Positions 7,767-63,876 of a stretch of 64,000 nucleotides of DNA are shown in pieces. Origin of the DNA: an uncultured Fibrobacter sp. GTDB lineage: Bacteria; Fibrobacterota; Fibrobacteria; Fibrobacterales; Fibrobacteraceae. Numbering within the stretch: the first letter of the stretch is position 1; every line of letters starts with the position of its first letter. Under the pieces are notes generated by a model, which did no database searches, was not told the origin of the DNA, and was given only the letters and a program-made list of their open reading frames with translations. The position numbers were made by a program, and so were the translations under genes. The stretch covers positions 1 to 64,000 of the forward strand of contig CAMHDS010000005.1 in assembly GCA_946183925.1 (NCBI GenBank). The letters run 5' to 3'.

Positions 7767-7808
7767 TAGGGGCTAGGGGGTAGGATCTAGGATCTAGGGC
7801 CGAGGGAT
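7767..7808 (+). repeat. Heptad tract (TAGGGGC type), 3' side of FISUMP gene
   Basis: TAGGGGC TAGGGGG, then TAGGATC twice, TAGGGCC and GAGGGAT: six consecutive 7-bp units, G-rich on the coding strand of the gene just ended. Looser TAGG units continue to about 7850. Confidence 0.8.
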
Positions 7809-8539: not shown

Positions 8540-8574
8540 CCTAATACCTACAACCTACTACCTAACCCCTAATA
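8540..8574 (+). repeat. Heptad tract overlapping the lgt stop
   Basis: Five units: CCTAATA, CCTACAA, CCTACTA, CCTAACC, CCTAATA. On the lgt strand it is G-rich and begins inside the gene; the lgt stop (8562-8564) and its last residues IRG are encoded by heptads. Confidence 0.85.
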
Positions 8575-9419
8575 GCAGCTTTCCTCTGCCGCACAATCAG
8601 CACGATGAGCCAAATGAGGCCGGTCAAAATCATGAGGCTGCACAGCGTCTGGCCGCGGCTCATGCCGAACAGGTCCACGCGTCCAATGTGGGCGTCGGGC
8701 ATGCGGAAAAACTCGATGAAGAACCGTGCGGTGCCGTAGCCTATCAGGTACAGGCAGGGCATCTTGTCGTGGAGTACAGGAATGCGGCGCAGGTTGTAGA
8801 GCGCTACGAACAAAAGAACGCCTTCGAAGAGCATTTCGTAGAGCTGGCTCGGGTGGTGGAGCACCGGCGGGCTCACCAGGCTGTCCTTTGCCAGCGGGAA
8901 CCACATGCCGATGGGGCTGGTGGTCACTTCGCCAAAGAGCTCCCCGTTGATGAAGTTCCCCCAGCGGCCCCAGGTGTAGGCGAGGGGCGCCAGCAGAAAG
9001 CACAGGTTCAGGGTTTTCCACAGGTCCATCTTGTTGCGCCTGATGCCGATGATGGTGAAGACGGTGCCAAGGATTAGCCCCCCGTGGTAGCTCATGCCCG
9101 AAATGCCCACGAAATGCCCGTTGCTCATGGGAATAAGGATTTCGGTGGGGTTGGCGAGGTAGTAGTCCGCCTTGTAGAAAAACACGTAGCCAAGGCGCGC
9201 CCCGATGATGATGCCCGCGATAATCCAGGTGAAAAGGCTGTCGAACTGTTCCTTGGTGTAGCCCAGGTTTTCTTTCTTGTTGATGTGGGTCAGGGTCAGG
9301 TAGCCCGTGACGAAGGCGAAAATGTACATGATGCCGTACCAGCGCACGGGGAAACTCCCCAGCGTGAATGCGGTTCCGTCAAAATACGTGGGAATCAGGT
9401 TCCACCAGGATAAATCCAT
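8562..9419 (-). CDS. lgt: Prolipoprotein diacylglyceryl transferase
   Basis: 285 residues, multi-pass inner-membrane enzyme that transfers diacylglycerol from phosphatidylglycerol to the lipobox Cys of prolipoproteins. The family signature is clear (GRWGNFINGELFGEVT), together with SFPVRWYGIMYI near the N-terminus, the YHGGLILG segment, and HPSQLYEMLFEGVLLF. The many lipoproteins in the window are its expected substrates. It starts 1 nt after the stop of the penicillin-binding protein gene, so the two share a transcript. Its last three residues and stop are made from a heptad tract. Confidence 0.95.
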   Translation of the reverse strand: MDLSWWNLIPTYFDGTAFTLGSFPVRWYGIMYIFAFVTGYLTLTHINKKENLGYTKEQFDSLFTWIIAGIIIGARLGYVFFYKADYYLANPTEILIPMSNGHFVGISGMSYHGGLILGTVFTIIGIRRNKMDLWKTLNLCFLLAPLAYTWGRWGNFINGELFGEVTTSPIGMWFPLAKDSLVSPPVLHHPSQLYEMLFEGVLLFVALYNLRRIPVLHDKMPCLYLIGYGTARFFIEFFRMPDAHIGRVDLFGMSRGQTLCSLMILTGLIWLIVLIVRQRKAAIRG

Positions 9420-23939: not shown

Positions 23940-24639
23940 GAATGTACCGAATGCAGAAGATGCCGCCGAGGAATCGGCGGAACTTCCGAAAGTGGAAAGC
24001 CGTGAAGACCTGATGCGCATTATCCAGGCCCTAGTCTTTGCGTCTCCGGATATCGTGACCCTGAAAAAGTTGCGGGAAATCCTGGGGGATTTCTTGGATG
24101 CCCGTACTGTGGCTGAGGCCTTGATTGCCGCCAACGATTCCCTGAACAAGATACAGTCTCCTTTCGAAATTGTGGAACAGGCCGGCGGTTACCGCTTTAG
24201 GACACGTGCCAAGTATTACCCCTGGGTGCGCAAGTTGTTCCCCGAAGCCAACGCCCGCAGGCTTTCCCAGGCGGCCCTGGAAACATTGGCCGTAATTGCA
24301 TACCAGCAACCCATCACCAAGGCCGCCATTGAACAGGTCAGGGGCGTGGCCTCTGTCGATGGACCTATCCGTAACCTGCTGGACAAGGGATTTATTTCTT
24401 TGGGTGCCCGTGCGGAGACGGTGGGGAACCCCTACACCTACGTGACCACCCAGGAATTCATGAAGTATTTCGGGATTAACCGTATTCCCGAAGACCTGCC
24501 CCGCTTGCGGGAATTCAGTGAGCTTCTGGAGGCGGGCAATCTGGTGCCCCAGTATTCGATTCCCGAAAGTTCTCCGGAGGAGCCCAAGCCCCCTGAGGAA
24601 GTTCCGGACCAGATTGAGCTGTCCATGGGAGAGACCTGA
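23932..24639 (+). CDS. scpB: Segregation and condensation protein B
   Basis: 235 residues: tandem winged helices of ScpB with SREDLMRIIQALVFASPDIV, then the hallmark LSQAALETLAVIAYQQPITK and AAIEQVRGVASVDGPIRNLL. ScpB binds ScpA and SMC to condense and segregate chromosomes. The N-terminal 20 and C-terminal 35 residues are acidic, Pro-rich tails. Overlaps ccsA by 8 nt and mutS by 1 nt. No scpA in the window. Confidence 0.94.
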   Translation: MSENVPNAEDAAEESAELPKVESREDLMRIIQALVFASPDIVTLKKLREILGDFLDARTVAEALIAANDSLNKIQSPFEIVEQAGGYRFRTRAKYYPWVRKLFPEANARRLSQAALETLAVIAYQQPITKAAIEQVRGVASVDGPIRNLLDKGFISLGARAETVGNPYTYVTTQEFMKYFGINRIPEDLPRLREFSELLEAGNLVPQYSIPESSPEEPKPPEEVPDQIELSMGET

Positions 24640-27257
24640 TGGCCGCTACGCCCTTGATGCAGCAGTACTACGAAATCAAGAAACAGAATCCGGGCTGCAT
24701 ACTTTTCTTTAGAATGGGGGATTTCTTCGAACTGTTCGAAGAAGACGCCGTTATCGCTTCCAAGATTTTGGGGCTTACCCTCACCAGCCGAAACAACGGG
24801 GCGGCGGGGGAGACTCCCCTTTGCGGGTTTCCGCACCATGCGGCGGACCGCTACGTGCCCAAGATGGTGGCCGCAGGCTACCGTATAGCCATTTGCGAAC
24901 AGGTAGAAGACCCAAAGCTTGCCAAGGGAATCGTGAAGCGGGACGTGGTGGAAATCATCAGCGCCGGAACCGCCATGGACGAGACCAACCTGAACGCCAA
25001 GGAGGCCAACTACCTCTGCGCCTATATGCCGGCGGAATCAGGAGACGAGTCGGTGTTCGCCTTTGCGGACGTGACCACGGGCTACCTTGCGGTGAGCAGG
25101 AGTTCCGTGCAGGCTTTTGAGTGCGAGTTCTGCCGCCGCATGCCCAAAGAAGTGGTGGTGGCCGAAGGTTGCGAAATCCCTTCGGGCGTCATGGACATTA
25201 TCCGCTCCGAAAACATCCTGATTACGGAGATTCCCGCTTTTCTGTTCGGGGCGGAGCACGGGCGGGACGTGCTGTTTTCCCACTTCAAGGTGGAATCCCT
25301 GGTAGGCCTCGGCCTGGACGGTCGCGACCGTGAAACGGCGGTGACGGGCGCCCTCTTGCAGTATTTGATGGACCAGAAAAAGTCCGAGCTTTCCCACTTT
25401 ACGGGTCTCGAGATTTTGAATCTGGACGACTACATGACTCTGGATCCCAGCACCTTGCGCAATCTGGAGCTGGTCCGCCCGCTGAACGCCGACGATTATT
25501 CTAGCACCTTGTGTTCCGTTCTGGACTTTACCGTTACCGCCATGGGCGGCCGCGTGCTGAAGGACTGGGTGAGTCACCCGCTGATTTCGGTGGAAAAAAT
25601 CAAGGCCCGCGAAGATGCCGTGTCCGAGCTGGTGGGGAACCCCATGGCCTTGGACGAACTGAAGGAATCCCTTACCTCTATTCTGGACATGGAACGCCTG
25701 ATGGGGCGCGTGGGGAGCGGTCGCGCCAACGCTCGTGACCTGGCGGGCATGGGTCGCTCCCTGTGCCAGGCTTCTAAGGTGGCCCGTGTGCTTTCGGAAC
25801 TGCATTCACCTCTGTTCCAGCAGTTCCGTCAGGTGCTGGAACTGGCCAAAGGCAGGGGAGAGGAACTTCTTCAGAATTTCAACGACGACTTGCCCCTGAC
25901 GGTCCGCGAGGGTGGCATGATTCGGGAAGGCGCCAACGTGGAACTGGACGCCATGAACGCCGATATCAAGGATAAGCGCCAGTGGATTGCCTCCCTGGAA
26001 AGCCGTGAGCGGGAACGTCTGGAAATCCCGAGCCTCAAGGTGGGCTACAACAGGGTGTTCGGCTACTACATCGAGATTACAAGGGCCCAGATGGCCAAGG
26101 CCACCAAGCCCATTCCCGACGAATACATCCGCAAGCAAACTACCGTCAACGCCGAGCGCTACATCACCCCCGAGATGAAGGAGTGCGAGTCTGTCATCAG
26201 CAACGCCGAGGTGAACATCCACGAGCTGGAATACCGCATCTTCTGTCAGCTCAGGGACCGGGTGAACAGCTGGCGCAGCGAACTTCAGGAAATCGCCGAC
26301 GCTATTGCCCGTGTGGACACTCTTTACAGCTTTGCCCGTGCCGCCCGTAAGTACAATTACGTGTGCCCGGAAGTCTATACCGGTACGGGAATTGAAATTC
26401 GGGGCGGTTTCCACCCTGTAATCGTGGCGGTGAATCCGGACTTGAATTTTATCCCCAACGATGTGGAACTTTCTCCCGAGACCACCCGCTTGATGCTCAT
26501 TACGGGCCCCAACATGGCAGGTAAATCTACTTACCTGCGTCAGACGGGGCTGATTGTGCTGATGGCCCAGATGGGCTGCTTTGTGCCTGCGGAATCGGCC
26601 CGCATAGGCGTTGTGGACCGGATATTCACCCGCGTGGGGGCTAGCGACCGCCTGAGCCGTGGTCTCAGTACCTTCATGGTGGAGATGATCGAGACGGCCA
26701 ACATTCTGCGGAATGCCACGCCTCACAGCTTGGTGCTGTTAGATGAAATCGGTCGCGGAACTAGCACCTTCGACGGCCTTTCTATCGCATGGTCTATCGT
26801 GGAGACTTTGCATAGCGAGCCTTCTCGCATGGCGCTGACGCTGTTTGCCACCCACTATCACGAACTCACCGGCCTTGTGGATTCCCTGGAACATGCGGGG
26901 AACTATCAGGTGGCGGTTCAGGAGAAAGGCGACAAGCTCATCTTCTTGCACAAGATTCTTGCCGGGGCTTGCGATTCTAGCTACGGTATCCATGTGGCGG
27001 AAATGGCGGGACTCCCCTCTACGGTGGTGCGCCGGGCCCGCAAGATTCTGCTCCGTCTGGAAAAGCAGAAGATCGACCCCAGTGACGAGGCGATTCACAA
27101 GAAAATAAAGGACAGGCCCCAGATGGACCTGTTCGCCGCCCCCGACGAGTCCCTGACGCTCTTGAAACAGGAAATCTGCCGCCTGCGTCCCGAAGAGATG
27201 ACCCCACTGCAGGCCCTGCAACGCCTCACGGAACTGAAGGAAAACTATGGGAAATAG
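24639..27257 (+). CDS. mutS: DNA mismatch repair protein MutS
   Basis: 872 residues, complete. The mismatch-binding motif is LFFRMGDFFELFEEDAV (Phe-x-Glu), the Walker A is GPNMAGKSTYLRQTG, Walker B region LVLLDEIGRGTSTFDGLSIA, and a C-terminal HhH-like ALQRLTELKE. MutS recognises mispairs and recruits MutL. ATG overlaps the scpB stop. Its TAG stop is the first three bases of a heptad tract. No mutL nearby. Confidence 0.96.
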   Translation: MAATPLMQQYYEIKKQNPGCILFFRMGDFFELFEEDAVIASKILGLTLTSRNNGAAGETPLCGFPHHAADRYVPKMVAAGYRIAICEQVEDPKLAKGIVKRDVVEIISAGTAMDETNLNAKEANYLCAYMPAESGDESVFAFADVTTGYLAVSRSSVQAFECEFCRRMPKEVVVAEGCEIPSGVMDIIRSENILITEIPAFLFGAEHGRDVLFSHFKVESLVGLGLDGRDRETAVTGALLQYLMDQKKSELSHFTGLEILNLDDYMTLDPSTLRNLELVRPLNADDYSSTLCSVLDFTVTAMGGRVLKDWVSHPLISVEKIKAREDAVSELVGNPMALDELKESLTSILDMERLMGRVGSGRANARDLAGMGRSLCQASKVARVLSELHSPLFQQFRQVLELAKGRGEELLQNFNDDLPLTVREGGMIREGANVELDAMNADIKDKRQWIASLESRERERLEIPSLKVGYNRVFGYYIEITRAQMAKATKPIPDEYIRKQTTVNAERYITPEMKECESVISNAEVNIHELEYRIFCQLRDRVNSWRSELQEIADAIARVDTLYSFARAARKYNYVCPEVYTGTGIEIRGGFHPVIVAVNPDLNFIPNDVELSPETTRLMLITGPNMAGKSTYLRQTGLIVLMAQMGCFVPAESARIGVVDRIFTRVGASDRLSRGLSTFMVEMIETANILRNATPHSLVLLDEIGRGTSTFDGLSIAWSIVETLHSEPSRMALTLFATHYHELTGLVDSLEHAGNYQVAVQEKGDKLIFLHKILAGACDSSYGIHVAEMAGLPSTVVRRARKILLRLEKQKIDPSDEAIHKKIKDRPQMDLFAAPDESLTLLKQEICRLRPEEMTPLQALQRLTELKENYGK

Positions 27258-27282
27258 GTGTTAGGTTGTAGGTTTTAGGGCT
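27255..27282 (+). repeat. Heptad tract (TAGGTTG) starting at the mutS stop
   Basis: TAGGTGT, TAGGTTG, TAGGTTT, TAGGGCT. The first TAG is the mutS stop. It runs into GCTGGTTACA, a piece also found after the heptads near 7851. Confidence 0.8.
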
Positions 27283-27384: not shown

Positions 27385-28215
27385 ATGTCTGTACAAGTAA
27401 TGGTAAATGGAATTCCGGGCAACATGGGCCGTATCGTGGCCGAAACCTGCGTGGCCCGCGGCCTGGAACTGGTCCCGTATTCCCTGACGGGCGAAATCAT
27501 CGTGGAAAACGAGGCCGAGGTGGCCGGCAAGACCGTCCAGCTCCTTAAGCCCAGCAACCGCGAAGAGCGCATCGGCGAGGTGCTGGCCAAGTACCCGAAA
27601 ATGATTTGCATCGACTATACCCACCCCACGGCTGTAAACGACAACGCCGCCTTCTACGTGAAGCACAAGATTCCTTTTGTGATGGGCACTACCGGTGGCG
27701 ACCGCGAAGCCCTTGCAAAGCTTGTGGCCGACGCCAACCACCCCAGCGTCATTGCTCCCAACATGGCAAAGCAGATTGTGGCTTTCCAGATGATGATTGA
27801 ATTTTTGGCCAAGGAATTCCCCACGGCATTTAGCGGTTACAAACTTTCCGTGGTAGAAAGCCACCAGAAGACCAAGGCGGACACCAGCGGCACGGCCAAG
27901 GCCGTGGTAGGGGACTTCCAGAAGATGGGATTCGACTTCTCTGTAGATGACATCGAGAAGGTCCGTAACGAAAAGGAACAGGTGGAACGGATGCACGTGC
28001 CCGAGGAATACCTGGGCGGTCACGCCTTCCACACCTACAGCCTGGACAGCGCCGACGGCACCGTGCATTTCGAGTTCCAGCACAACGTTTGTGGCCGCAA
28101 GATTTACGCCGAAGGCACCGTAGATGCGGTGAACTTCCTCGCATGCCACCTCGCAAACGGAACCGCCAAACCCTTCAACATGATGGACGTTTTGCGCTCT
28201 GGAAAAATGAGATAA
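27385..28215 (+). CDS. dapB: 4-hydroxy-tetrahydrodipicolinate reductase, plant-type
   Basis: 276 residues. Reduces hydroxy-tetrahydrodipicolinate in lysine/diaminopimelate synthesis. The NAD-binding loop is VNGIPGNMGRIVAE instead of the common GxxGRMG; FVMGTTGGDREAL and VVESHQKTKADTSGTAK hold the catalytic His and Lys. The sequence fits the plant-type DapB branch, which also occurs in some bacteria. Preceded by ACAGGAGTAACA as ribosome site. Supplies meso-DAP to the peptidoglycan made by the PBP at 9421. Confidence 0.9.
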   Translation: MSVQVMVNGIPGNMGRIVAETCVARGLELVPYSLTGEIIVENEAEVAGKTVQLLKPSNREERIGEVLAKYPKMICIDYTHPTAVNDNAAFYVKHKIPFVMGTTGGDREALAKLVADANHPSVIAPNMAKQIVAFQMMIEFLAKEFPTAFSGYKLSVVESHQKTKADTSGTAKAVVGDFQKMGFDFSVDDIEKVRNEKEQVERMHVPEEYLGGHAFHTYSLDSADGTVHFEFQHNVCGRKIYAEGTVDAVNFLACHLANGTAKPFNMMDVLRSGKMR

Positions 28216-28223
28216 GAAGTAAA

Positions 28224-28258
28224 CAGTGATTAGTGGTTAGTAAATAGGAATAATTAGG
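28224..28258 (+). repeat. Heptad tract, 3' side of dapB
   Basis: CAGTGAT, TAGTGGT, TAGTAAA, TAGGAAT, AATTAGG: G-rich orientation after a plus-strand gene, 8 bp past the stop. Confidence 0.8.
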
Positions 28259-28281
28259 CGGCTACGCCGCGATCATTAAAA

Positions 28282-28315
28282 CCTAACCACTGACCACTAA
28301 CCACCAACCACTCTT
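28282..28315 (+). repeat. Heptad tract, 5' side of the ABC permease gene
   Basis: CCACTGA, CCACTAA, CCACCAA, CCACTCT, T, then ATG. C-rich orientation before a plus-strand gene and complementary in style to 28224-28258. No Shine-Dalgarno is present. Confidence 0.82.
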
Positions 28316-29332
28316 ATGCGGTCCTACATCCTCCGACGCCTGCTTTTGATGATCCCGACCCTCATCGGGATTTCGCTGGTGTGTTTTATACTCATCCAGC
28401 TGTTGCCGGGCGGCCCTGTGGAGGAGATGATTTCCAGGGCCCAGCAGGCCGCCGCCATGAAAGGCGGGGTAGATGCGTCCAAGGCCCTGTCGCCAGACCA
28501 GATAGCCCAAATCCAGGCCTACTTCGGGTTTGACCAACCGGCCTGGAAGCGCTACCTGACCTGGCTCTGGAACGTGCTGCACCTGGACTTGGGCGCAAGC
28601 TACACCTATGGCCTCCCGGTATGGGACGTCATCGTGAGCCGGTTCCCCATATCCCTGTTTTTCGGAATCACTTCGTTCTTCTTGAGTTACCTGATTTGCA
28701 TTCCCCTTGGCCTCTGGAAGGCGGTGCATCACGGGAGCAAGCTGGACTCCCTCAGTTCGGGCCTGATATTCTCGGGCTACGTGATGCCGGGTTATGCCCT
28801 GGGCATCCTCCTGATTATTTTCCTTGCGGGCGGGTCCTACCTGGACATCTTTCCGCTGGGGGGCCTTACCAGCGACGACTTTGAGGATTTCTCTTTTTTC
28901 GGGAAAATCGTGGACCTGGGGCATCACCTGATTCTGCCGATTTTCTGCTACATGATTAGCGAGTTCGCCTTCCTGACCTTCCTCATGAAGAATTCCGCCC
29001 TGGAGGAACTGGGCAAGGACTACATGCGCACGGCCCTTGCAAAAGGCATGAGTTTCAAGCAGGCTTTGGTGCGCCATGCACTCCGCAACGCGCTCATTCC
29101 CATCGCCACCCGCCTCTCCGAAATCTGCACCCTCATGTTTGCGGGGGCGCTCCTTATCGAGAAGGTCTTTGATATCGACGGCATGGGCCTGCTATACTAC
29201 AATTCCATGGTGAACCGGGACTACAACGTGGTCATGGGCATCATCTTCCTCAGCAGCCTCATGGCCATGGTGGGCCGCCTTTTCAGCGATATCCTATACA
29301 CGCTGGTGGACCCGCGAATCAAGTTCTCGTAG
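28316..29332 (+). CDS. Dipeptide/oligopeptide ABC transporter permease (DppB/YejB-like)
   Basis: 338 residues, six transmembrane helices. N-terminus MRSYILRRLLLMIPTLIGIS and the segment RYLTWLWNVLHLDLGASYTY are typical of DppB/OppB/YejB; the inner-membrane coupling motif (EAA loop) reads DYMRTALAKGMSFKQALVRH, and the end is VDPRIKFS. It would form half of a peptide importer channel. No partner permease, ATPase or binding protein is adjacent, so the rest of the transporter must be elsewhere. A heptad tract occupies its leader. Confidence 0.9.
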   Translation: MRSYILRRLLLMIPTLIGISLVCFILIQLLPGGPVEEMISRAQQAAAMKGGVDASKALSPDQIAQIQAYFGFDQPAWKRYLTWLWNVLHLDLGASYTYGLPVWDVIVSRFPISLFFGITSFFLSYLICIPLGLWKAVHHGSKLDSLSSGLIFSGYVMPGYALGILLIIFLAGGSYLDIFPLGGLTSDDFEDFSFFGKIVDLGHHLILPIFCYMISEFAFLTFLMKNSALEELGKDYMRTALAKGMSFKQALVRHALRNALIPIATRLSEICTLMFAGALLIEKVFDIDGMGLLYYNSMVNRDYNVVMGIIFLSSLMAMVGRLFSDILYTLVDPRIKFS

Positions 29333-32004: not shown

Positions 32005-32144
32005 CCTAACCACCAATCACGAAACATTTCTCATCCCACGCCCCGCACCCCACATTAAAACCTCTTGTTCCCATCAGCCCTAACCCCTAAATCCTAATCT
32101 CTACAACCTACTACCTAACCCCTAGATCCTAGCCCCTAGATCCT
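32005..32144 (+). repeat. Heptad tract, 20 units
   Basis: In one phase: CCTAACC ACCAATC, ACGAAAC ATTTCTC, ATCCCAC GCCCCGC, ACCCCAC and so on, becoming CCTAACC/CCTAGAT-type units (AGATCCT AGCCCCT AGATCCT in this phase). C-rich orientation towards the downstream plus-strand gene. Confidence 0.85.
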
Positions 32145-32196
32145 AAAAAGTTTTCAGTCCTCAGTATATATTTGGCGCCAAAGGCGCGACTATAAG

Positions 32197-32292
32197 AACT
32201 CACAACTCATAACTGACAACTCATTACTCATCCCACACCTCACATTCCACATTCTTAATTCCGAACTCCGAATTCCGAACTCCGAACTCACC
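32197..32292 (+). repeat. Heptad tract with three motif families in one phase
   Basis: AACTCAC AACTCAT, AACTGAC AACTCAT, TACTCAT, then CCCACAC CTCACAT, TCCACAT, TCTTAAT, then TCCGAAC TCCGAAT, TCCGAAC twice, TCACC and the ATG. The 7-bp phase does not break when the motif changes. Confidence 0.88.
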
Positions 32293-33054
32293 ATGTCCCT
32301 TTCCATCCAATACGATTCTACATTTGAAGGCTTCTTGAGTGCAGTCTTCGAGATTTACCGCCAGCATCTTGAAGTGGGCGAAATCCGTCCGGACCGTTCC
32401 GCGGCTCCGGCAGATATGTTCCTGCAGCCTTTCCATATCGAGACCAGCGAGGAGTCGGCGGCCCGCCTCCATCGCGCCATCGTAAACTTTGCAAGCGAAG
32501 AGGTCTATAACTTGCTCCATGCGGCGTTCCTGTCGGAGGAGGTGGGCGTAGAGATGAAAATTTTCGCCTTTCTGAAAAAGCTTTTTTCTGGAACGGACCC
32601 TAGCTATGGACAAAATCCTGCTTCGGCGGAAATGCTCCCGCTTTACAAGCTGGGCCAGTCCGTGCGTAGGGAGGCGGGGGGAATGCTTGGCCTGGTCCGT
32701 TTTGCCGTAGGTCCCGATAACATGCTCTGTGCCGAAATTGAACCGAAATATGACGTACTGATGCTTATGGAAGCTCATTTTTCCAAGCGTTTCGCCAATG
32801 AAAAATGGCTGATTTACGATTCCAAGCGGGACTACGGCCTGTTTCACGACCGAGCAGGGTGTCAGGTGGTGACATTGCCGGGCTACAAGTCCGGCGCCAT
32901 GGACCTGAAAGATTCTTTTACCGACCTGTGGAGGGAATTCTACAAGTCCATCGCCATCAAGGAACGGGAGAACCCCAAGCTTTTGAGGCGTTGCCTGCCT
33001 GTCCGTTACTGGAACCACCTGCCGGAGCGCTCCATGGCAACGGCGGTTACGTAG
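32293..33054 (+). CDS. UDG-superfamily-like partner protein (TIGR03915/DUF4130)
   Basis: 253 residues (MSLSIQYDSTFEGFLSAVFE). It matches the family always paired with the radical SAM protein upstream: YDSTFEGFLSAVFEIY at the start, a middle KLGQSVRREAGGMLGLVRF, AHFSKRFANEKWLIYDSKRD, and the C-terminal DUF4130-like LWREFYKSIAIKERENP. In other genomes this is called a probable DNA metabolism or uracil-DNA glycosylase-like protein; biochemistry is not established. No ribosome binding site; a heptad tract abuts the ATG. Confidence 0.85.
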   Translation: MSLSIQYDSTFEGFLSAVFEIYRQHLEVGEIRPDRSAAPADMFLQPFHIETSEESAARLHRAIVNFASEEVYNLLHAAFLSEEVGVEMKIFAFLKKLFSGTDPSYGQNPASAEMLPLYKLGQSVRREAGGMLGLVRFAVGPDNMLCAEIEPKYDVLMLMEAHFSKRFANEKWLIYDSKRDYGLFHDRAGCQVVTLPGYKSGAMDLKDSFTDLWREFYKSIAIKERENPKLLRRCLPVRYWNHLPERSMATAVT

Positions 33055-42032: not shown

Positions 42033-43319
42033 CTACTTTTTCGGTTCAATCCTTTCCATGCCACCCATGTACGGCCTCAGCACTTCAGGAATCAAGAGCG
42101 AGCCGTCCTTCTGCTGGTAGTTGTCGCAGATGCCCACCATCACGCGCGGGGTGGCAAGTCCGGAACCGTTCAGCGTGTGCACGAACGTGTTCTTGCCGTT
42201 AATCTTCGTCTTGATGTTAGCGCGGCGGGCCTGGTAGTCTTCGAAGTTACTGCAGGAGCTCACTTCGAGCCACTTCTTTTCGACCGGAGCGTAAACTTCA
42301 AGGTCATAGCACTTGGCGGCACCGAAACCGAGGTCGCCCTTGCAGAGGGCCAGACGGTGGTAGGGCAGTCCCAGCTTTTCCAGGAGCTTTTCGCCGAAGC
42401 GGGTGAGTTCCTCGTGGTCTTCGTAGCTGTGTTCCGGATGGGCGAAGTAGACCATTTCCACCTTGTTGAACTGGTGCAGGCGGAGGAGTCCGCGGGTATC
42501 CTTGCCGTAAGAACCGGCTTCGCGGCGGAAGCAGGCGGAGTAGGCGCAGATGCGCTTCGGGAGTTCGGATTCCGGAATCACTTCGCCGGCATAAAGGTTG
42601 GTCAGCGGCACTTCGGCGGTCGGGATGAGGAACAGGTCGTCGTCCTTGTCGCAGCGGTACATGTCTTCTTCGAACTTCGGGAGCTGGCCCGTGCCGCGCA
42701 TGGTATTGCGGGTAACGAGGTACGGCGGCGTGAATTCTTCGAAGCCGTTCTTCATGTGTTCGTCGAGGAAGAACTGGATGAGGGCGCGTTCCAGGCGGGA
42801 ACCGAGACCGCGGTAGACCGGGAAGCCGGAACCGGAAATCTTTGCGCCGCGTTCGAAGTCAAAGATGCCGAGGCGTTCGCCCAAGGTCTTGTGGTCCACG
42901 CGGGCGAAGTCGTCGTTCTTGGTGTAGTAGTCAAACGGAATTGGGCCGTCCTTCTCGACCACGTTGTCCGAGCTGTCCTTGCCTTCCGGAGAACGCGGGG
43001 CAATGTTCGGCACGTGCATGAGCATTTCGGTCTGCTTGTAGTCCAAATCCTTGAGCTTCTTGTCGAGTTCGTCGATCTTGTCGCCGAGCGCGCGCATTGC
43101 GGCAACGGCCTCGTCGGCGTTCTCGCCCTTCTTCTTCAAGTCGCCAATCTTCTTGGATTCGGCGTTGCGTTCGCTCTTGAGGCGTTCCACTTCGGTGAGG
43201 AGCGGGCGGCGTTCGTTGTCGATGGCGAGAACGTCCTTCAGGCTCACTGTGGTGTACTTCTTTTCGGTTTCAGCAATGTAGTATTCCGGATTTTCGCGGA
43301 TTTTCTTGATGTCAAGCAT
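42033..43319 (-). CDS. serS: Seryl-tRNA synthetase
   Basis: 428 residues, complete class II synthetase. N-terminal coiled-coil arm (RLKSERNAESKKIGDLKKKG), motif 2 CFRREAGSYGKDTRGLLRLH, the serine-site IPTAEVPLTN, and motif 3 region NGSGLATPRVMVGICDNYQQ ending IPEVLRPYMGG. Charges tRNA-Ser. Upstream on its strand are TATCTTTT and a C-rich heptad tract (43366-43407). Confidence 0.96.
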   Translation of the reverse strand: MLDIKKIRENPEYYIAETEKKYTTVSLKDVLAIDNERRPLLTEVERLKSERNAESKKIGDLKKKGENADEAVAAMRALGDKIDELDKKLKDLDYKQTEMLMHVPNIAPRSPEGKDSSDNVVEKDGPIPFDYYTKNDDFARVDHKTLGERLGIFDFERGAKISGSGFPVYRGLGSRLERALIQFFLDEHMKNGFEEFTPPYLVTRNTMRGTGQLPKFEEDMYRCDKDDDLFLIPTAEVPLTNLYAGEVIPESELPKRICAYSACFRREAGSYGKDTRGLLRLHQFNKVEMVYFAHPEHSYEDHEELTRFGEKLLEKLGLPYHRLALCKGDLGFGAAKCYDLEVYAPVEKKWLEVSSCSNFEDYQARRANIKTKINGKNTFVHTLNGSGLATPRVMVGICDNYQQKDGSLLIPEVLRPYMGGMERIEPKK

Positions 43320-43365: not shown

Positions 43366-43407
43366 AGTGGTTGGTGATTAGTGGTTGGTGGTTAGGAACG
43401 AAGGACG
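43366..43407 (-). repeat. Heptad tract, 5' side of serS
   Basis: On the + strand AGTGGTT, GGTGATT, AGTGGTT, GGTGGTT, AGGAACG, AAGGACG; so C-rich on the serS strand, about 50 bp before its start. Confidence 0.8.
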
Positions 43408-44099: not shown

Positions 44100-44218
44100 C
44101 AGTGATGAGTCGTGAGTCATGAGTTGTGAGTGCACATTTCACATGCCACACCTCACATTCCACACCTCCCTAGATCCTAGCCCCTAAATCCTAAATCCTA
44201 AATCCTAACCCCTAACCC
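44100..44218 (+). repeat. Seventeen uninterrupted heptads from lptE to the next ATG
   Basis: CAGTGAT, GAGTCGT GAGTCAT, GAGTTGT GAGTGCA, CATTTCA CATGCCA, CACCTCA CATTCCA, CACCTCC, CTAGATC CTAGCCC, CTAAATC three times, CTAACCC twice, then ATG. Exactly 119 bp = 17 x 7. The first five are G-rich (3' type), the rest C-rich (5' type), so the tract can fold on itself. Confidence 0.9.
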
Positions 44219-46351: not shown

Positions 46352-46422
46352 TAATCACAAACTACACTTCACATTACTCATAACTGACCACCAACCACTA
46401 ACCACTAACCACTGACCACTTT
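46352..46422 (-). repeat. Heptad tract overlapping the hisI stop
   Basis: TAATCAC, AAACTAC, ACTTCAC, ATTACTC, ATAACTG, ACCACCA, ACCACTA twice, ACCACTG, ACCACTT on the + strand. The hisI TAG (46405-46407) and its last four residues VVSG are encoded by the tract. Confidence 0.85.
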
Positions 46423-46755
46423 AAAAAAGCAACTTCTCGCACCTGTGTGGCAAGCGACCTGCGGCCCCTGCATGCGCACCTTGAAGAGCAGTGCGTCAGA
46501 GTCGCAGTCGGCGGCCCATTCCACGACGGTCATCACGTTTCCGCTGGTGTCGCCCTTGTGCCAGTATTCCTTGCGGCTCCGGCTCCAGAATACCATTTCG
46601 CCACATTCGTGGGTGCGGCGGAGGGCTTCCTCGTTCATCCAAGCCATCATCAGCACGTCGCCCTTGTCAGCATCCTGAACGATAGCCGGCGCGAGCTTTA
46701 CGCCGTCCACTTCCACTTCGAACTTTATTTCTTTGATTAACTCTTCAAATTTCAT
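46405..46755 (-). CDS. hisI: Phosphoribosyl-AMP cyclohydrolase
   Basis: 116 residues, the monofunctional HisI type. Metal and substrate motifs: [38 protein letters not shown], the acid patch [13 protein letters not shown], and [12 protein letters not shown]. Opens the adenine ring in histidine synthesis. Cys residues at the end bind Zn. The terminal KVVSG is encoded by the flanking heptad repeat rather than by family sequence. No HisE fusion and no other his gene nearby. Confidence 0.93.
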
Positions 46756-46812: not shown

Positions 46813-46823
46813 TTTATTCCCAA

Positions 46824-46855
46824 AATCCGAACTCTGAAATCCGAATTCCGAATTA
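46824..46855 (-). repeat. Heptad tract (TCCGAAT type) at the proA stop
   Basis: AATCCGA, ACTCTGA, AATCCGA, ATTCCGA on +. On the gene strand it reads TAATTCGGAATTCGG, the TAA being the proA stop. Confidence 0.82.
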
Positions 46856-48124
46856 TCCTCTCACTTGTCCGTTTCCGCGGAGCACCCATTTGTAGGTGCA
46901 GAGGCTTTCCACGCCCATGGGGCCCCGGGCATGCAACTTGTCGGTCGAAATGCCTACTTCGGCACCGAGACCGTATTCGCCACCGTCGGCAAAGCGGGTG
47001 CTGGCGTTCACCATGACGCTGCTGCTATCGACATTGGCCACAAAGTAGTCCTGCACGCTTGCGTCTTCGGCAACTACGGCTTCGGTGTGGCGGCTGCTGT
47101 TCTGCTCGATATGCTCGCAGGCTTCGGCCACATTGTCCACGAACTTGACGCTTGCCTTGAGGGCCAGGTATTCGTGGTGGTAATTGCTGTCGTCGCCGAT
47201 GTCCTTGATACGGCTGTCGTGACTCTGAGCGTCCTTGTTTCCGAAGAGTTCCACACCACGATCGGCGAGGCAGTCCAAGAGTTTCTTGACGTTTGCCGCA
47301 TCGATGTGGCGGTCGATAATCACGCATTCCATGGCGTTGCACACGCCGGTGCGCTGCGTTTTGGCGTTAATCAGGATGTTCACCGCCTTGTCCATGTCGG
47401 CTGACTTGTCCACATACACGTGGCAGATGCCGTTGAAGTGCTTGATGACGGGAATCTTGCTCTGTTCCACCACGGCGCGGATCAGGCGCTCGCCACCGCG
47501 GGGGATTACCAGGTCGATGCAGTCGCTACGCTGCAACAGCATGCCCACCAGGTCGTGGCTCGTTTCGGTCACGAGCTGCACGGCGTCTTCGTCAATGCCG
47601 TTTTCGGCGAGGGCTTTGTGGAAAATCCCGGCGAGGCACTTGGCGGAATTCAGCGATTCCTTGCCGCCGCGCAAAATCACGGCGTTCCCCGCCTTAAAGC
47701 AGAGGCATGCGCCGTCGATGGTCACGTTCGGGCGGCTTTCGAAAATGAAGAACACAGAACCGATAGGTACGGCGATACGGCTAATCTTGATACCGTTCTT
47801 CAGTTCCCGGCTTTCCAGCACCCGGTTCAGCGGGTCGGTAAAGGCGGCGATTTCTTCGGCCCCCTTGGCCATGGCCTCAATGCGGGCGTCGTTCAGGGTC
47901 AAACGGTCCATCTTGGCGTCGTCCAGCTTGCCGGCGGCGGCTTCCAGATCCATCTTGTTGGCGGCCAGGATTTCCGGCTTGTGTTCCCGGAGCAACTTTG
48001 CCACCAGGTTCAGCACGGCGCTCCGTTTTTCGCCAGAGAGGGTGCGCAGGTTCTTGCTTGCTTTTTTGGCGTTTTTCGCCAAAAGGTCGGAATATTCGTC
48101 CAAGTTGGAATAATTTTTAGTCAT
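46853..48124 (-). CDS. proA: Gamma-glutamyl phosphate reductase
   Basis: 423 residues. Aldehyde-dehydrogenase fold with catalytic Cys in TQRTGVCNAMECVIIDR, NADPH-site GSVFFIFESRPNVTIDGACL and KAGNAVILRGGKESLNSAK. Makes glutamate semialdehyde in proline synthesis. proB is not in the window. TATATTAA is only 4 nt from its ATG: leaderless. Its TAA stop begins a heptad tract. Confidence 0.95.
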   Translation of the reverse strand: MTKNYSNLDEYSDLLAKNAKKASKNLRTLSGEKRSAVLNLVAKLLREHKPEILAANKMDLEAAAGKLDDAKMDRLTLNDARIEAMAKGAEEIAAFTDPLNRVLESRELKNGIKISRIAVPIGSVFFIFESRPNVTIDGACLCFKAGNAVILRGGKESLNSAKCLAGIFHKALAENGIDEDAVQLVTETSHDLVGMLLQRSDCIDLVIPRGGERLIRAVVEQSKIPVIKHFNGICHVYVDKSADMDKAVNILINAKTQRTGVCNAMECVIIDRHIDAANVKKLLDCLADRGVELFGNKDAQSHDSRIKDIGDDSNYHHEYLALKASVKFVDNVAEACEHIEQNSSRHTEAVVAEDASVQDYFVANVDSSSVMVNASTRFADGGEYGLGAEVGISTDKLHARGPMGVESLCTYKWVLRGNGQVRG

Positions 48125-50476: not shown

Positions 50477-50575
50477 TTTATGCTCCTATGGAGTTGTCGA
50501 AAAATCACTTGTTTTACGGCGTAATTATAGAATAATAAAACAATGAAATTTCTTTAAGTTAATGGTTTTGGGTAT

Positions 50576-50602
50576 GAAAAAAGCAGCCTTTTACGGGGCT
50601 GC
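50576..50602 (-). terminator. Minus-strand terminator
   Basis: GCAGCC-TTTTACG-GGGCTGC with AAAAAA on its left, so on the minus strand the stem is followed by TTTTTT. It would end transcripts coming from the 50.6-53 kb island. Confidence 0.75.
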
Positions 50603-50631
50603 CCTTGAAACTTGTTATCTGGATTTTGGCG

Positions 50632-50742
50632 TTATGCCTTACAGACCTTGGTTTCTCTGGACAGCCCCACAATAGCTCGGGCTGCTGCCGGGCTTGTTGC
50701 GATTGCAGTTGCTGCGATGTTCTGTCCAAAGAATTTGTTCAT
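50632..50742 (-). CDS. Possible 36-residue small protein
   Basis: Too short for the track. ATG at 50742, TAA at 50632-50634, product starting MNKFFGQNIAATAIATSPAA and ending in LSRETKVCKA; mostly small and hydrophobic in the middle. A strong terminator follows 30 bp after the stop, which favours a real transcript, but no clear ribosome site or homologue is known to me. Could equally be part of a 3' untranslated region. Confidence 0.3.
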   Translation of the reverse strand: MNKFFGQNIAATAIATSPAAARAIVGLSRETKVCKA

Positions 50743-50959
50743 GTGCAAAAAAATAGTTCCAGGTGCGGAAGTTGTCAAGAGGGGGAGGTCTCCCCCTGAT
50801 TGCAGCCTTGCCTCGTTGAGTCACATCCCTGCGTGCCATTCTTGTCATCCCCGCGCATCCTTCGTTGTCATCCCCGCGAAGGCGGGGACCTCCCTTCATC
50901 TACACACTCGGCAAGTCTTCCTTCACCCCCACGCCTAGGGGCGCTGCCCCTAAAACCCC

Positions 50960-51175
50960 TTTTTTACAAATCTTTCCCTCAATGTGTACGTTCCCTCGCT
51001 CACAGGAACTCACTTTGTTCGACTGTTCGCTCAGGAAGCACACATCTCGGTCAAAAAACACAAACAACGGCTCTGGTATGCAAGTGTTTTGTGGTCAGAA
51101 CCTGTTTTTGCAGGCAAGAACAGGTCTCGTAGGAGGAAACTCTTGTGACTGTTAGTCCCTGCGAGTTTCCGCCGA
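50960..51175 (+). repeat. ~200-bp dispersed repeat R200, copy 2
   Basis: Matches 6241-6450 in blocks: ACAAATCTTTCCCTC, hairpin arms TTCCCTCGCTCACAG against CTGTTCGCTCAGGAA, AGCACACATCTCGGTCAAAA, and the identical 36-nt hairpin at 51135-51170. Two arm pairs changed together relative to copy 1 (A-U to C-G, G-C to A-U). It points at the 3' end of the FISUMP gene, 200 bp away. Confidence 0.75.
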
Positions 51176-51377
51176 GAGTCTTTTGAAGATGTTATACATA
51201 ACTGTTTAGACAATTAGACATGGTTTTTGTCTAAACATTTTTGCCATTGAAACTGCGGAAATAGACAGTGAAGTAAAACATCATCTAAAAGTACACTAAC
51301 ATTGAATACGCAACAAAATAATTTATGTTACATTTCGTCGTAACATTTTCTTTTGCCTTGTTATGATATTGCAGTTC

Positions 51378-53102
51378 TTAATCTTTCAAACATCGGACAC
51401 TATATGCTTCATACGTACTTGACTTCCGCCAATTTGTGACATTAACCCATTCATCCCACCAGGTATACTTACAAGAATCTTCCTCGATGCAAATGATATC
51501 ATAGCCTGTGGATTTACTCCAAAAGCACCCATAACCACCTGCGCTCTTAAATTGTCCATTTGTAAAGGCGGGGTAAATGCCATAATAACCGCCCGATACA
51601 TAATAATAGCCCGCAGGCAACCAAGAAAAACCAAAGGCGTCGGGACCTGAAGCATTTATAACTTCAATCCTCGTGTTATCTCCGGGTCCAATACCTTGAG
51701 AAGTGCATAGGTCAAAATCCCGCGGGTAATAGTAAAACCCTATCGAATCGCTCCATCCTTTTCTAGACCTTAATAATGGCCCTGGGTATTTGACATATCT
51801 AAAGAGGGTTTTCCATTCAGATGTATCGGGTAAATGCCAACCCTTGGGGCAGATGTTTTTTGCCGTTGAATAGGGATAAAGCCTTCCGTACCTTTTTTCA
51901 TATTTTGCGCAATAAATCGAGCTGTCGTTATAGCATGCGTTATCACCATATTCATAGTTCATGTTTTCTGCCATCCAAACCTGATTCCCAATTTGAACGG
52001 TCTTGTAATACTGCCCATCGCGGCTATCAATAAATTCGCCATAGTCTATATTCGGGTTCAAATTGTTCATTTTTGGATCAAAACTGCTAGAAGATGAAAT
52101 TTCAATTATGGGAGAAGGACCTTCGATACATCGTATCGAATATAAATACAAATCCTTGTATTTTATTGATTCGCGATAAAAGCCTATATCATTACTTATT
52201 GTAGGAGTATAAATGCAATATCCCGCACTGGTACATTCATATTCTCCGGCACTCCAAAAGGTCGTCGCAGAACCCACACTGTAAAAATCATCATGATACC
52301 CACCTAGATAGTTTCCTGCCGGAAGTGCAGTAAATCCAAAATCATTTGTTCCATTTTTATCCCAACCCGATGCAGATTTGAGGGTTGTTTTTGCTGTTCC
52401 CGAACCAACATACGACACAAGAGTGTCCCATTCATCTATTGTGGGCAAATGCCACCCTTGGGGGCACACGCTATTGGCCGCCGACCAGTTGTACAGTCGC
52501 CCATATTTAAAGCATGAATCAACAGAGTTGTTGTAGCACATGCTCTTTAAAGAGTCAATATTGTAGTTTAGATTTTCGGCCATCCATACCTGATTTCCAA
52601 TTTTAACAGTCTTGTATTTTTGTCCATCACGGCTGTCAGTGAATTCGCCGTAGCTTATATTTGGATTTAGGTATGACCAAGCTTCCTTCATTTTGGATGA
52701 ACTGCTTGACGAATATGTGTCACGAACTGAAGAACTAGAACTTGTCGGCGATGATATATTTTCACTTGAAGAAGATTCAATCGTATTTATTGACGAACTT
52801 GACGGCAAAAGCAAATAAGATGATGAAGAAATTGCCAGAATGGGTGTGTCTTGATTTGCCGGATTGATTGTTTCATCACCTTGTTTCGTCCAGATGCCAT
52901 TTGCACAACCATAGTAGGCATTCTCTGTTGTGACAAGAATCGACATTCCATTCTTTTCTTCGTTACACATTCCAAGTTCAAACCTTTTTTCTACCTCGGA
53001 TACAGGCGACGAATTAGTTGCATCGGACCCAGAGTCGGAACCGCAGGCAGTTATGAGGATTAATGCAAGAACAGTTGTCATTATAGAAATTACTTTCCGC
53101 AT
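51378..53102 (-). CDS. FISUMP-domain lipoprotein (two domains)
   Basis: 574 residues. Lipobox LILITACGSD (Cys-20), a Ser-rich linker (SSSYLLLPSSSS and SSPTSSSSS), then two FISUMP domains: about 148-335 (DSRDGQKYKTVKIGNQVWMA, CPQGWHLPTIDEWD, FGFTALPAGNYL, LYSIRCIEG) and about 345-574 (DSRDGQYYKTVQIGNQVWMA, CPKGWHLPDTSEWK, FGFSWLPAGYY, YSVRCLKD). The two domains share the NLNPNIxYGEF lead-in, so an internal duplication is likely. AT-rich relative to the core genes. Begins 3 nt after the GIY-YIG-like gene with AAGGAG, so both are co-transcribed. Confidence 0.92.
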   Translation of the reverse strand: MRKVISIMTTVLALILITACGSDSGSDATNSSPVSEVEKRFELGMCNEEKNGMSILVTTENAYYGCANGIWTKQGDETINPANQDTPILAISSSSYLLLPSSSSINTIESSSSENISSPTSSSSSVRDTYSSSSSSKMKEAWSYLNPNISYGEFTDSRDGQKYKTVKIGNQVWMAENLNYNIDSLKSMCYNNSVDSCFKYGRLYNWSAANSVCPQGWHLPTIDEWDTLVSYVGSGTAKTTLKSASGWDKNGTNDFGFTALPAGNYLGGYHDDFYSVGSATTFWSAGEYECTSAGYCIYTPTISNDIGFYRESIKYKDLYLYSIRCIEGPSPIIEISSSSSFDPKMNNLNPNIDYGEFIDSRDGQYYKTVQIGNQVWMAENMNYEYGDNACYNDSSIYCAKYEKRYGRLYPYSTAKNICPKGWHLPDTSEWKTLFRYVKYPGPLLRSRKGWSDSIGFYYYPRDFDLCTSQGIGPGDNTRIEVINASGPDAFGFSWLPAGYYYVSGGYYGIYPAFTNGQFKSAGGYGCFWSKSTGYDIICIEEDSCKYTWWDEWVNVTNWRKSSTYEAYSVRCLKD

Positions 53103-53105
53103 ATA

Positions 53106-53624
53106 TCACTCCTTGCGTTGGGATATCGGGCCTTCAAAAAGGGGATTATATTTGTAGTGAAGTATGGCTTCAACTAGCTCATTTGAAAATTCTGGAGCTG
53201 ATTTAAGGAAGAGAATGTTGATTCGTATAAAATTGTTTCTTATGAAATCCCCAACATCACCTATTTCTTTCCCTAAAGGTTTGTTATTCAAAATACTTCT
53301 TGCAAGATTGCTTCCGCTTGATTTGGGATTATAGTGATGCCCATCAAATCTAGCGGTAGACTTTGGGCCAACACGACCGATTTTGAAGAAACGGTTTCCG
53401 CTAAACCTTATGCATTCGTTCAAATAAAAAATGTAAACAGCTCCTTTCAACTCGCCGTATTTATTCTTATACGAATTAAAAGTATGTTGATCGGACGGAA
53501 GGTCAATGATAAAGTCGATTCCCGCCTTTAGGGGTTTTTCTAAAAGAAGTGTACTTTTTTCAATATATTTGGGGAGATCCCTCATCATTTGCTGAAGTTC
53601 TTTTTGATTTTTTTCTTTAGCCAT
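53106..53624 (-). CDS. GIY-YIG-like nuclease domain protein
   Basis: 172 residues from the ATG at 53624, which has GGAGG 6 nt upstream; the track start is 21 nt earlier. The C-terminal ~110 residues fit a GIY-YIG-type fold: KGAVYIFYLNECIRFSGN, FFKIGRVGPKSTARFDGHHY, and a late Glu in LVEAILHYKYNPLFEG. The N-terminal ~55 residues are helical (LQQMMRDLPKYIEKSTLLLE). The usual GIY/YIG pair is only partly kept (VYIF), so activity is unsure. Its pairing with a surface lipoprotein is unusual. AT-rich, probably acquired. Confidence 0.6.
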   Translation of the reverse strand: MAKEKNQKELQQMMRDLPKYIEKSTLLLEKPLKAGIDFIIDLPSDQHTFNSYKNKYGELKGAVYIFYLNECIRFSGNRFFKIGRVGPKSTARFDGHHYNPKSSGSNLARSILNNKPLGKEIGDVGDFIRNNFIRINILFLKSAPEFSNELVEAILHYKYNPLFEGPISQRKE

Positions 53625-53840
53625 CGCAGCCTCCATCGTATACACCTATGGAGTTCGCCCCTGCTCAACAAGAGCTAAACTCTCTAATATGTCCGATTTA
53701 AAAATAAATTAAAAATGCCGCGATGGAATAGAAAACTTATAAAAAAGAGTGTGCTTGTTGTGAGAATATTGATTTTGAGATAATTTTTGCAATTTGCAGA
53801 AATTTGCATATAATTACGTGAAAATAATGAAAAATATTGC

Positions 53841-56384: not shown

Positions 56385-56419
56385 AATTCCGAATTCCGAA
56401 ATCTGAATTCCGAATTAAT
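56385..56419 (-). repeat. Heptad tract (TCCGAAT type) at a stop codon
   Basis: AATTCCG twice, AAATCTG, AATTCCG, AATTAAT. On the gene strand the stop TAA starts TAATTCGGAATTCAG. Confidence 0.82.
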
Positions 56420-56876
56420 TCGTCACCACTTTCCGGTAGCTCTTGGCGTTGCCGATCCAGAGCTTCACCAGGAGTTCTTCTAGGGAGGCGGTGGAGACGC
56501 ATTCGGGGTCGGCATCCTGGATTTCGTCGGAAATCAGGTTTGCTTGGGTCAGGTTCAGCATGCCGTAGTACATGGCTTCCATGAGCTGGGAGGCGAATTT
56601 CGGGGAAATCCGCGCCACCGCGTCCATGTCGTTCAGGGGCGGCAGTTGGGTCTTGTCGGGGCTGAACTGGTCCAGGTTGTCCATGGTCCACATGTCGGCG
56701 GCCTTGCCCATGTCGTCGCTGGGGGCGATTTTCAGGAGCTTTTCCTTGTAGGCGTTCCATTCCACGTTGGTGGTCTTTCCCGCCTTGCGCACGGACTTCA
56801 AGAAGGACAGGACGGCGTAGTAGAGGTCCTTTTCTCTCTGGTTCATCTCTTTCTGCGAAGCGGGAATCATGGCCAA
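56415..56876 (-). CDS. Conserved-looking protein of unknown function
   Basis: 153 residues (MAMIPASQKEMNQREKDLYY; Met at 56870 is an equal choice). Predicted mostly helical, no signal peptide, with NQREKDLYYAVLSFLKSVRK, KFASQLMEAMYYGMLNLTQA and a C-terminal LEELLVKLWIGNAKSYRKV. No family recognised. Starts 10 nt after purH, so it is probably in its operon. The last two residues and stop come from a heptad tract. Confidence 0.65.
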   Translation of the reverse strand: MAMIPASQKEMNQREKDLYYAVLSFLKSVRKAGKTTNVEWNAYKEKLLKIAPSDDMGKAADMWTMDNLDQFSPDKTQLPPLNDMDAVARISPKFASQLMEAMYYGMLNLTQANLISDEIQDADPECVSTASLEELLVKLWIGNAKSYRKVVTN

Positions 56877-57939: not shown

Positions 57940-57981
57940 GATTTTTCCTTTGTGATTTACAGGATAAAATATAGAAAATAA

Positions 57982-58093
57982 GGCTCGAGGCACGGGGCGC
58001 GAGGCACGAGGCTCGGGGGCGAGATTAATGTGGAGTGTGGAATGTGAAGTGTGAGATTAATCATTTTTCATTACACATCACACATTTCACACT
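57982..58093 (-). repeat. Sixteen heptads between purH and the NifU-like gene
   Basis: GGCTCGA GGCACGG, GGCGCGA GGCACGA, GGCTCGG, GGGCGAG, ATTAATG, TGGAGTG TGGAATG, TGAAGTG, TGAGATT, AATCATT, TTTCATT, ACACATC ACACATT, TCACACT; the next base begins the NifU stop (CTA). Three motif families keep one phase, and the G-rich part faces purH, the C-rich part the NifU stop. Confidence 0.88.
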
Positions 58094-58915: not shown

Positions 58916-58937
58916 AACGGGGGCAAATATAGATAAT

Positions 58938-59005
58938 TATGAATTAGGAAATAGGAATTGTTTGCTAGAATAGAAATCTAACTCCGAACTCCGAATTCCG
59001 AATTA
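58938..59005 (-). repeat. Heptad tract between the NifU-like and DUF748 genes
   Basis: TATGAAT, TAGGAAA TAGGAAT, TGTTTGC, TAGAATA, GAAATCT, AACTCCG twice, AATTCCG, ending in the DUF748 TAA stop. Phase holds across the change from TAGGAAT to AACTCCG. Confidence 0.82.
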
Positions 59006-63712: not shown

Positions 63713-63713
63713 G

Positions 63714-63770
63714 TAGTGATTAGGGCGTAGCCCGTAAACAGTGATTAGTATACAGTGATTAGTATACAGG
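63714..63770 (+). repeat. Heptad tract, 3' side of the metallophosphoesterase gene
   Basis: TAGTGAT, TAGGGCG, TAGCCCG, TAAACAG, then TGATTAG TATACAG twice. G-rich orientation, 1 bp after the stop; the last part is a 14-bp double unit. Confidence 0.82.
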
Positions 63771-63800
63771 ATCGCTGATATCAAGATGTTTTTTTGCATA

Positions 63801-63876
63801 TCCTAACCACCAACGGCCTTACGGCTTACGGACCTTCGGTCCTAACCACTAACCACTAATCACTAACCACTAAATT
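63801..63876 (+). repeat. Heptad tract, 5' side of rlmH, in phase with its ATG
   Basis: After CCTAACCACCAA and CGGCTTACGG-type units come CTAACCA twice, CTAATCA, CTAACCA, CTAAATT, then ATG at 63877. C-rich orientation, complementary in style to 63714-63770. Confidence 0.85.

Follow-up and report, generated by a model that had tools for sequence, protein, structure and literature searches.

Oriented heptad repeats at Fibrobacter gene edges as candidate arms of polar, quasi-palindromic spacer modules

Tandem 7-nt repeats in the spacers of a 64,000-nt stretch of DNA from an uncultured Fibrobacter sp. (contig CAMHDS010000005.1, positions 1 to 64,000, below called the window) raise a question of polarity. 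Units that follow a stop codon are G-rich, and units that precede a start codon are C-rich. The initial annotation described this pattern between a dapB-like gene and a permease gene and at a series of other sites, and considered roles in the mRNA. We asked whether the pattern is a rule, and whether a role in the mRNA is required to explain it.

The spacer at 28216-28315 (+ strand) has the dapB-like gene (27385-28215) to its left and an ABC-permease-like gene (28316-29332) to its right; both labels rest on the initial annotation and on inspection of the N-terminus rather than on a family search. The spacer is filled with heptads, and its sequence, its predicted fold and its absence from several relatives suggest a quasi-palindromic module. 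GTAAACAGTGATTAGTGGTTAGTAAATAGG stands directly after the TAA stop, and CCTAACCACTGACCACTAACCACCAACCAC directly before the ATG at 28316. The G-rich arm after the stop, GTAAACAGTGATTAGTGGTTAGTAAATAGGA (28220-28250, + strand), consists of TTAGTGG-type units, as had been described. It is followed by a hairpin core, TCGCGGC-GTA-GCCGCC (28257-28272, - strand), which is one of 13 intergenic copies in 1.2 Mb. The C-rich arm (28283-28311, + strand) is built of CCACTAA-type units, again as described, and ends 4 nt before the ATG, without a Shine-Dalgarno (SD) sequence. The view of the spacer as an imperfect inverted repeat was borne out, and its RNA is predicted to fold into a strong hairpin of -33.1 kcal/mol (z = -6.5) with a stem spanning from stop codon to start codon. 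No Rfam match at gathering score was found anywhere in the window.

Other heptad tracts of the window follow the same polarity. G-rich tracts were found downstream of the + strand gene ending at 7680 (7767-7806, +, TAGG family) and starting at the TAG stop of the gene 24639-27257 (27255-27279, +); the gene after the latter tract retains its own SD leader. On the - strand, a tract that is G-rich on the sense strand overlaps the stop of the gene 8562-9419 (8540-8572), another lies at the 3' end of the gene 46405-46755 (46364-46419), and AATTCGG-type tracts are located at the stops of the genes 46853-48124 (46820-46854) and 56415-56870 (56385-56416). A C-rich tract in which several unit families occur serially (32197-32289, +) precedes the ATG at 32293. 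To its left lie a second copy of the hairpin core, TCGCGCC-TTT-GGCGCC, with TGAGTTG-type arms on its flanks (32174-32189, -), and a C-rich tract of the CCTAGAT/CCCCTAA family that the initial annotation had not listed (32071-32145, +). This last tract, 148 nt before the ATG at 32293, fits the expectation of C before starts, yet the upstream stop is slightly nearer. The tract at 43367-43393 is G-rich on the + strand and thus C-rich on the sense strand upstream of the - strand gene 42033-43319.

Several spacers carry both arms. At 44101-44218 (+), a G-rich TGAGTTG part after the stop at 44098 is followed by C-rich CACATTC and CCTAAAT units up to the ATG at 44219. Two spacers lie between pairs of - strand genes. 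The first (57981-58091) is G-rich on the + strand from 57981 to 58055 and then C-rich to 58091, so that the site noted at 57982 is in fact two tracts, the G-rich one facing the 5' end of the left gene and the C-rich one lying at the 3' end of the right gene. The second (58935-59004) is G-rich on the + strand at 58935-58957 and C-rich at 58980-59004. TTAGTGG-type arms, G-rich then C-rich, also fill 63713-63860 (+), from the gene end at 63712 to the next start; this spacer is the last in the window and is not part of the gene-pair counts given below. Once each tract was assigned to a gene strand, all sites listed by the initial annotation conformed. We also note that the region 50477-53826 was nearly gene-free in our own calls despite open frames at 51378-53102 and 53106-53645, and had no Rfam match; it possibly contains genes of unusual composition.

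We extended the analysis to 1.20 Mb of the window's own draft genome, in which our own gene caller, rather than a curated annotation, placed 941 genes and their starts. Period 7 was the only strongly enriched intergenic period, with 135 lag-7 segments at threshold 10, compared with 1-11 segments at each further lag examined in the range 4-13 and with about 4 in shuffled sequence. Scoring the strand of each tract against its nearest gene edge gave orientations that were far from equal. Classed in this way on the sense strand, 160 tracts were mostly G-rich at 3' edges (67 G, 14 C) and C-rich at 5' edges (9 G, 69 C; Fisher p = 1e-20). For tracts at most 20 nt from an unambiguous edge, defined by the other gene edge being at least 25 nt further away, the G-rich to C-rich ratio was 53:2 at 3' edges and 0:39 at 5' edges. 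The statement that the rule has no clear exception is thus nearly true close to gene edges, but not further out, where polarity fades beyond about 40-80 nt. Tract-free spacers of the same genome had no comparable G/C skew.

The TTAGTGG unit behaved alike in loci retrieved by pattern matching, for the most part a single locus from each genome (within 40 nt, 8:2 at 3' edges and 0:8 at 5' edges, p = 0.001). Two near-complete genomes had fewer tract spacers, 12-14 per 400 kb, with G-then-C order in 4/4 two-armed spacers and small, mixed single-arm counts at 3' edges. In the sister genus G102, 100 kb yielded one weak lag-7 segment, which may mean that the tracts are restricted to Fibrobacter, although few outgroups were sampled.

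A spacer that reads G-then-C still reads G-then-C after reverse complementation, and "G after stops" and "C before starts" are therefore one strand-symmetric rule. Restated, the rule says that a spacer read along the + strand starts G-rich at its left edge and finishes C-rich at its right edge, whatever the orientation of the flanking genes (++, --, +- or -+), and that at either end of a gene it is the G-rich strand that leads away from the coding sequence. In our genome, the G-then-C order was found in 35/35 two-armed spacers (11 ++, 12 --, 5 +- and 7 -+), and in relatives in 26/27. The symmetric rule does not by itself point to transcription or translation, and a role in the mRNA is not required. 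Nor is pairing between the untranslated regions of one mRNA, because divergent and convergent spacers obey the rule as well.

The explanation that we favor, with slightly better than even confidence, is that the tracts belong to polar, quasi-palindromic spacer modules that spread by recombination, their polarity being inherent to the module and kept by exchange between like arms. The heptad tracts would form the arms of short non-coding modules occupying the junctions between Fibrobacter genes, each reading 5'-[G-rich heptads]-(often a short hairpin core)-[C-rich heptads]-3' whichever strand is followed. When such a module fills a spacer, its G-rich strand exits each flanking gene, which yields G after stops and C before starts. 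The uniform order of the two-armed spacers, the shared core and the matched arms argue for this reading, as do junctions that are empty or variably filled, spacers 97-100% identical between flanks of about 87% identity, the persistence of polarity upstream of likely -10 boxes and, at 5' edges, in units free of start codons, SD and stops, and the lack of skew in tract-free spacers.

The core, TCGCGSC-N3-GSCGCC, is a dispersed hairpin with 13 intergenic copies and 1 genic copy in 1.2 Mb and none in shuffles. The intergenic copies always lie inside tract spacers and occur in both genomic orientations. The S positions covary, GGC occurring with GCC or GCC with GGC. In every copy the 5' flank is G-rich, and in nearly all the right flank is C-rich, the exceptions running on into a further tract. 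Different copies carry different unit families, yet within any one copy the two arms match (p = 0.03 in our genome, p < 5e-5 with relatives included). The pattern was present in 57/80 Fibrobacter genomes, each of which gave 0-2 matches with a reversed control.

The same unit families serve 5' and 3' edges in similar numbers. The commonest units (AGTTATG, AGTGGTT, AATTCGG, AGTTGTG and ATTTCGG) lack GGG, which is found only in some families such as TAGGGG. The innermost arms of a spacer are complementary (p ~2e-4 at 28 nt), but the outermost arms are not, suggesting that modules are layered or recombined; a simple inserted palindrome in every spacer is ruled out by the latter result. A second palindromic repeat class, of the GTCATCC...GGATGAC type, fills spacers too, sometimes within heptad spacers (examples are a spacer in locus L080 and positions 8721-9039 of contig C27 of our genome).

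Some observations count against the module reading. With non-complementary outermost arms and many one-armed spacers (38 G-only and 37 C-only in our genome), the complete module is in the minority, and the shared core is confined to 13/121 tract spacers. A Y1 transposase of the REP type (PF01797) was absent from our genome, a draft of about 81% completeness, at E 1e-3, and no target duplication was seen when empty and filled junctions were compared, the relatives being too diverged to define insertion ends. Modules alone would not require the anchoring to gene edges, where polarity peaks at distances up to 20 nt.

For a comparison across species we used 57 Fibrobacter loci around dapB (L-numbered), the relatives being mostly metagenome-assembled. 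Several species lack any spacer at the dapB-permease junction (TAAATG or TAATG); in others it is filled by G-then-C modules of about nine different families. Even the nearest relatives of the window, with dapB 96-97% identical, have wholly different modules at this junction. Conversely, spacers were identical over 194/194 nt for L081/L101 and L081/L100 and over 99/99 nt for L082/L099, with flank identities of 0.88 in each case. The spacers of L071/L091 match at 113/116 nt (flanks 0.86), a weaker case because both contigs belong to one assembly. This assembly (UBA4375) contains two dapB contigs with 86% identity, suggesting that the genome bin probably mixes two species.

The high identity of the shared spacers gives way to that of the flanks within about 5-24 nt from the stop and the start codon. 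The flanking-gene tree separates the genomes that share an allele, and forcing them together was rejected for three alleles (p 2e-47, 2e-7 and 7e-8), which rules out that these alleles descended jointly with their flanking genes. In a fourth case (L092, L093 and L098, 125/126 nt) the grouping was not rejected (p 0.49), and common descent with strong conservation may apply. Across all orthologous spacers, those with heptads tended towards two extremes, no relationship or almost complete identity, regardless of flank identity, whereas the identity of orthologous heptad-free spacers declines gradually with that of their flanks. The 194-nt allele was found at full length at only three places in 80 genomes, whereas its left arm is a dispersed repeat in 75/80 genomes, mostly located just after stops (18/24 scored). 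Arms are thus dispersed repeats, and entire spacers pass between species as cassettes. In the spacer after the permease gene, L092 and L093 have identical left arms and right halves of different C-rich heptad families. Judging from this alignment, an arm has been swapped and polarity kept.

The main rival explanation, to which we give a limited but appreciable chance, is RNA-level selection acting separately on each edge and favoring G-poor leaders before starts and C-poor, backup-stop-rich sequence after stops. At the 5' side it would provide unstructured, SD-less initiation via S1-like binding without false starts, and at the 3' side the 7-nt steps place backup stop codons in all three frames. 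Composition agrees with this (leader tracts contain 6% G, 3' tracts 11% C), and an SD 4-mer was found in only 1/33 leaders whose tract lies no further than 12 nt from the start, compared with 331/563 other genes with a spacer, 41% of which lack such a match. SD-less starts adjoining tracts include those at 28316 and 44219 of the window. Within 10 nt of 3' edges, units with a stop codon followed the rule at 41:1 and stop-less units at 14:3, the latter being about even in relatives; the weaker rule in stop-less units means that tandem stop codons possibly contribute. However, the 5' rule is equally strict in units without start codons, SD-like words or stops. It also holds upstream of likely -10 boxes, where clear edges gave 12 C to 1 G (14:7 with ambiguous edges included), and this explanation needs two separate selections to account for a rule that is geometrically single. 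Avoidance of start codons, SD sequences and stop codons as the sole cause is rejected for the 5' side, and only partly for the 3' side.

The proposed role of CA-rich leaders in translation survives in part: tract leaders are G-poor and nearly devoid of SD, which fits SD-less initiation, but this is not supported as the general cause of polarity. Rho loading, also proposed, would be expected to favor C-rich RNA after stops, opposite to what is observed. The near absence of SD beside tracts, a further point against modules alone, shows that 5' function is affected, and translation may thus also select orientation. Modules and RNA-level selection are not mutually exclusive. We also observed a TAYAWT box with a peak 6-8 nt before the ATG in our genome (44/923 genes at 6-7 nt; consensus approximately TTTACTAYATT-N6-ATG; example L104 11840-11900), suggesting leaderless promoters in Fibrobacter.

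Hairpins in operon mRNAs appear a distinctly improbable cause. According to this explanation, which resembles roles proposed for REP/BIME elements, paired arms join stop and start and either keep translational coupling or protect the upstream mRNA. The dapB-permease spacer, with stop and start at the base of one stable stem, fits well, its junction is empty and tightly coupled (TAAATG) in several relatives, and two-armed codirectional spacers are on average more stable than tract-free ones (mean z -2.75 vs -1.68). However, tract-free convergent spacers are just as structured, the outermost arms, nearest to stop and start, are generally non-complementary, and divergent and convergent two-armed spacers keep the same order. 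The suggested duplex between 3' and 5' untranslated regions is thus plausible for 28216-28315, but not for divergent and convergent spacers, which obey the rule as strictly without such a pair. Least credible is a mutational or replication-strand bias, with heptad slippage oriented by transcription and neither module nor function: tandem 7-nt arrays with lengths differing in steps of 7 (7 nt between L071 and L072) agree with it, but a uniform transcription-strand bias would orient both gene ends alike and is ruled out by their opposite polarity, and tract-free spacers are without skew.

For the polar modules we envisage the following course. Unit sequences would drift and be homogenised along and between arms, probably through 7-nt slippage and fold-back copying, and cassettes would probably be exchanged by short-tract recombination. 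By geometry, exchange between like arms keeps polarity. Selection may purge modules that invade coding sequence and favor G-poor sequence beside starts. An RNA-level regulatory role would not be needed, although single spacers are predicted to fold into strong hairpins. More tentatively, and with considerable doubt, polar arms at gene edges could be general recombination joints that preserve polarity whatever gene or orientation is joined, making Fibrobacter spacers swappable cassettes. If so, one junction could replace another across loci and species, the breakpoints falling at stop and start codons.

Known systems share parts of this picture. Cyanobacterial STRR heptanucleotide repeats are tandem heptads between genes, and the Fibrobacter tracts are like them in this respect. 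REP/BIME and MITE-type palindromic repeats are dispersed, non-coding, hairpin-forming intergenic elements with a shared core. The Fibrobacter modules resemble REP and stem-loop families in having a multi-copy hairpin core dispersed between genes. Unlike REP/BIME, they have heptad-array arms of variable unit, and no Y1 transposase was found in the draft.

The closest match is the GGGNATC-type of intergenic, G-quadruplex-capable heptads that Rehm et al. (2015; PMC4692102) described in Xanthomonas and Nostoc. Their G-rich strand is the antisense strand in the 50 nt before ORFs and the sense strand in the 50 nt that follow stops, the repeats lie nearer to the 5' neighbouring ORF regardless of orientation, and each Xanthomonas genome has 70-75 convergent (G then C) pairs; the polarity was left without explanation. 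Intergenic tandem 7-nt units and the same polarity at both gene edges are common to both systems. However, the Rehm type is a single unit family (GGGNATC/GGGGAYT), whereas Fibrobacter has many families, most without GGG, sometimes a shared hairpin core, and spacer switching between species. Oriented TAACTGA heptads in Beggiatoaceae, Cyanobacteria and Bacteroidetes (MacGregor, 2015; PMC4679880) lie a few nt upstream of starts that mostly lack SD, with rare reverse sets after stops. This system shares oriented heptads and SD-poor starts with Fibrobacter, but has a single unit and is mainly a 5' feature; three tandem TAACTGA units were found in 0/60 Fibrobacterota genomes searched.

Intergenic region switching, or horizontal regulatory transfer, is likewise known (PMC5890482 and references therein). 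In Fibrobacter, too, orthologous genes are separated by spacers that bear no relation to each other and do not follow the gene tree, but here switching is seen between species at about 87% flank identity, with boundaries about 5-24 nt from stop and start, and involves heptad modules. No report of polar heptads in Fibrobacter was found in the literature searched, which covered few subscription journals. New here are the extension of the rule to a third phylum with numerous unit families, mostly lacking GGG; its strand-symmetric formulation; a hairpin core that recurs with interchangeable arms; and spacers that are nearly identical although their flanks have diverged. The variety of units in a third phylum shows that polarity requires neither G-quadruplexes nor any single sequence, and with the strand-symmetric formulation for gene edges a cause based on transcription is no longer needed. 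Nearly identical spacers in diverged flanks are natural experiments on how such repeats spread and whether swaps change expression.
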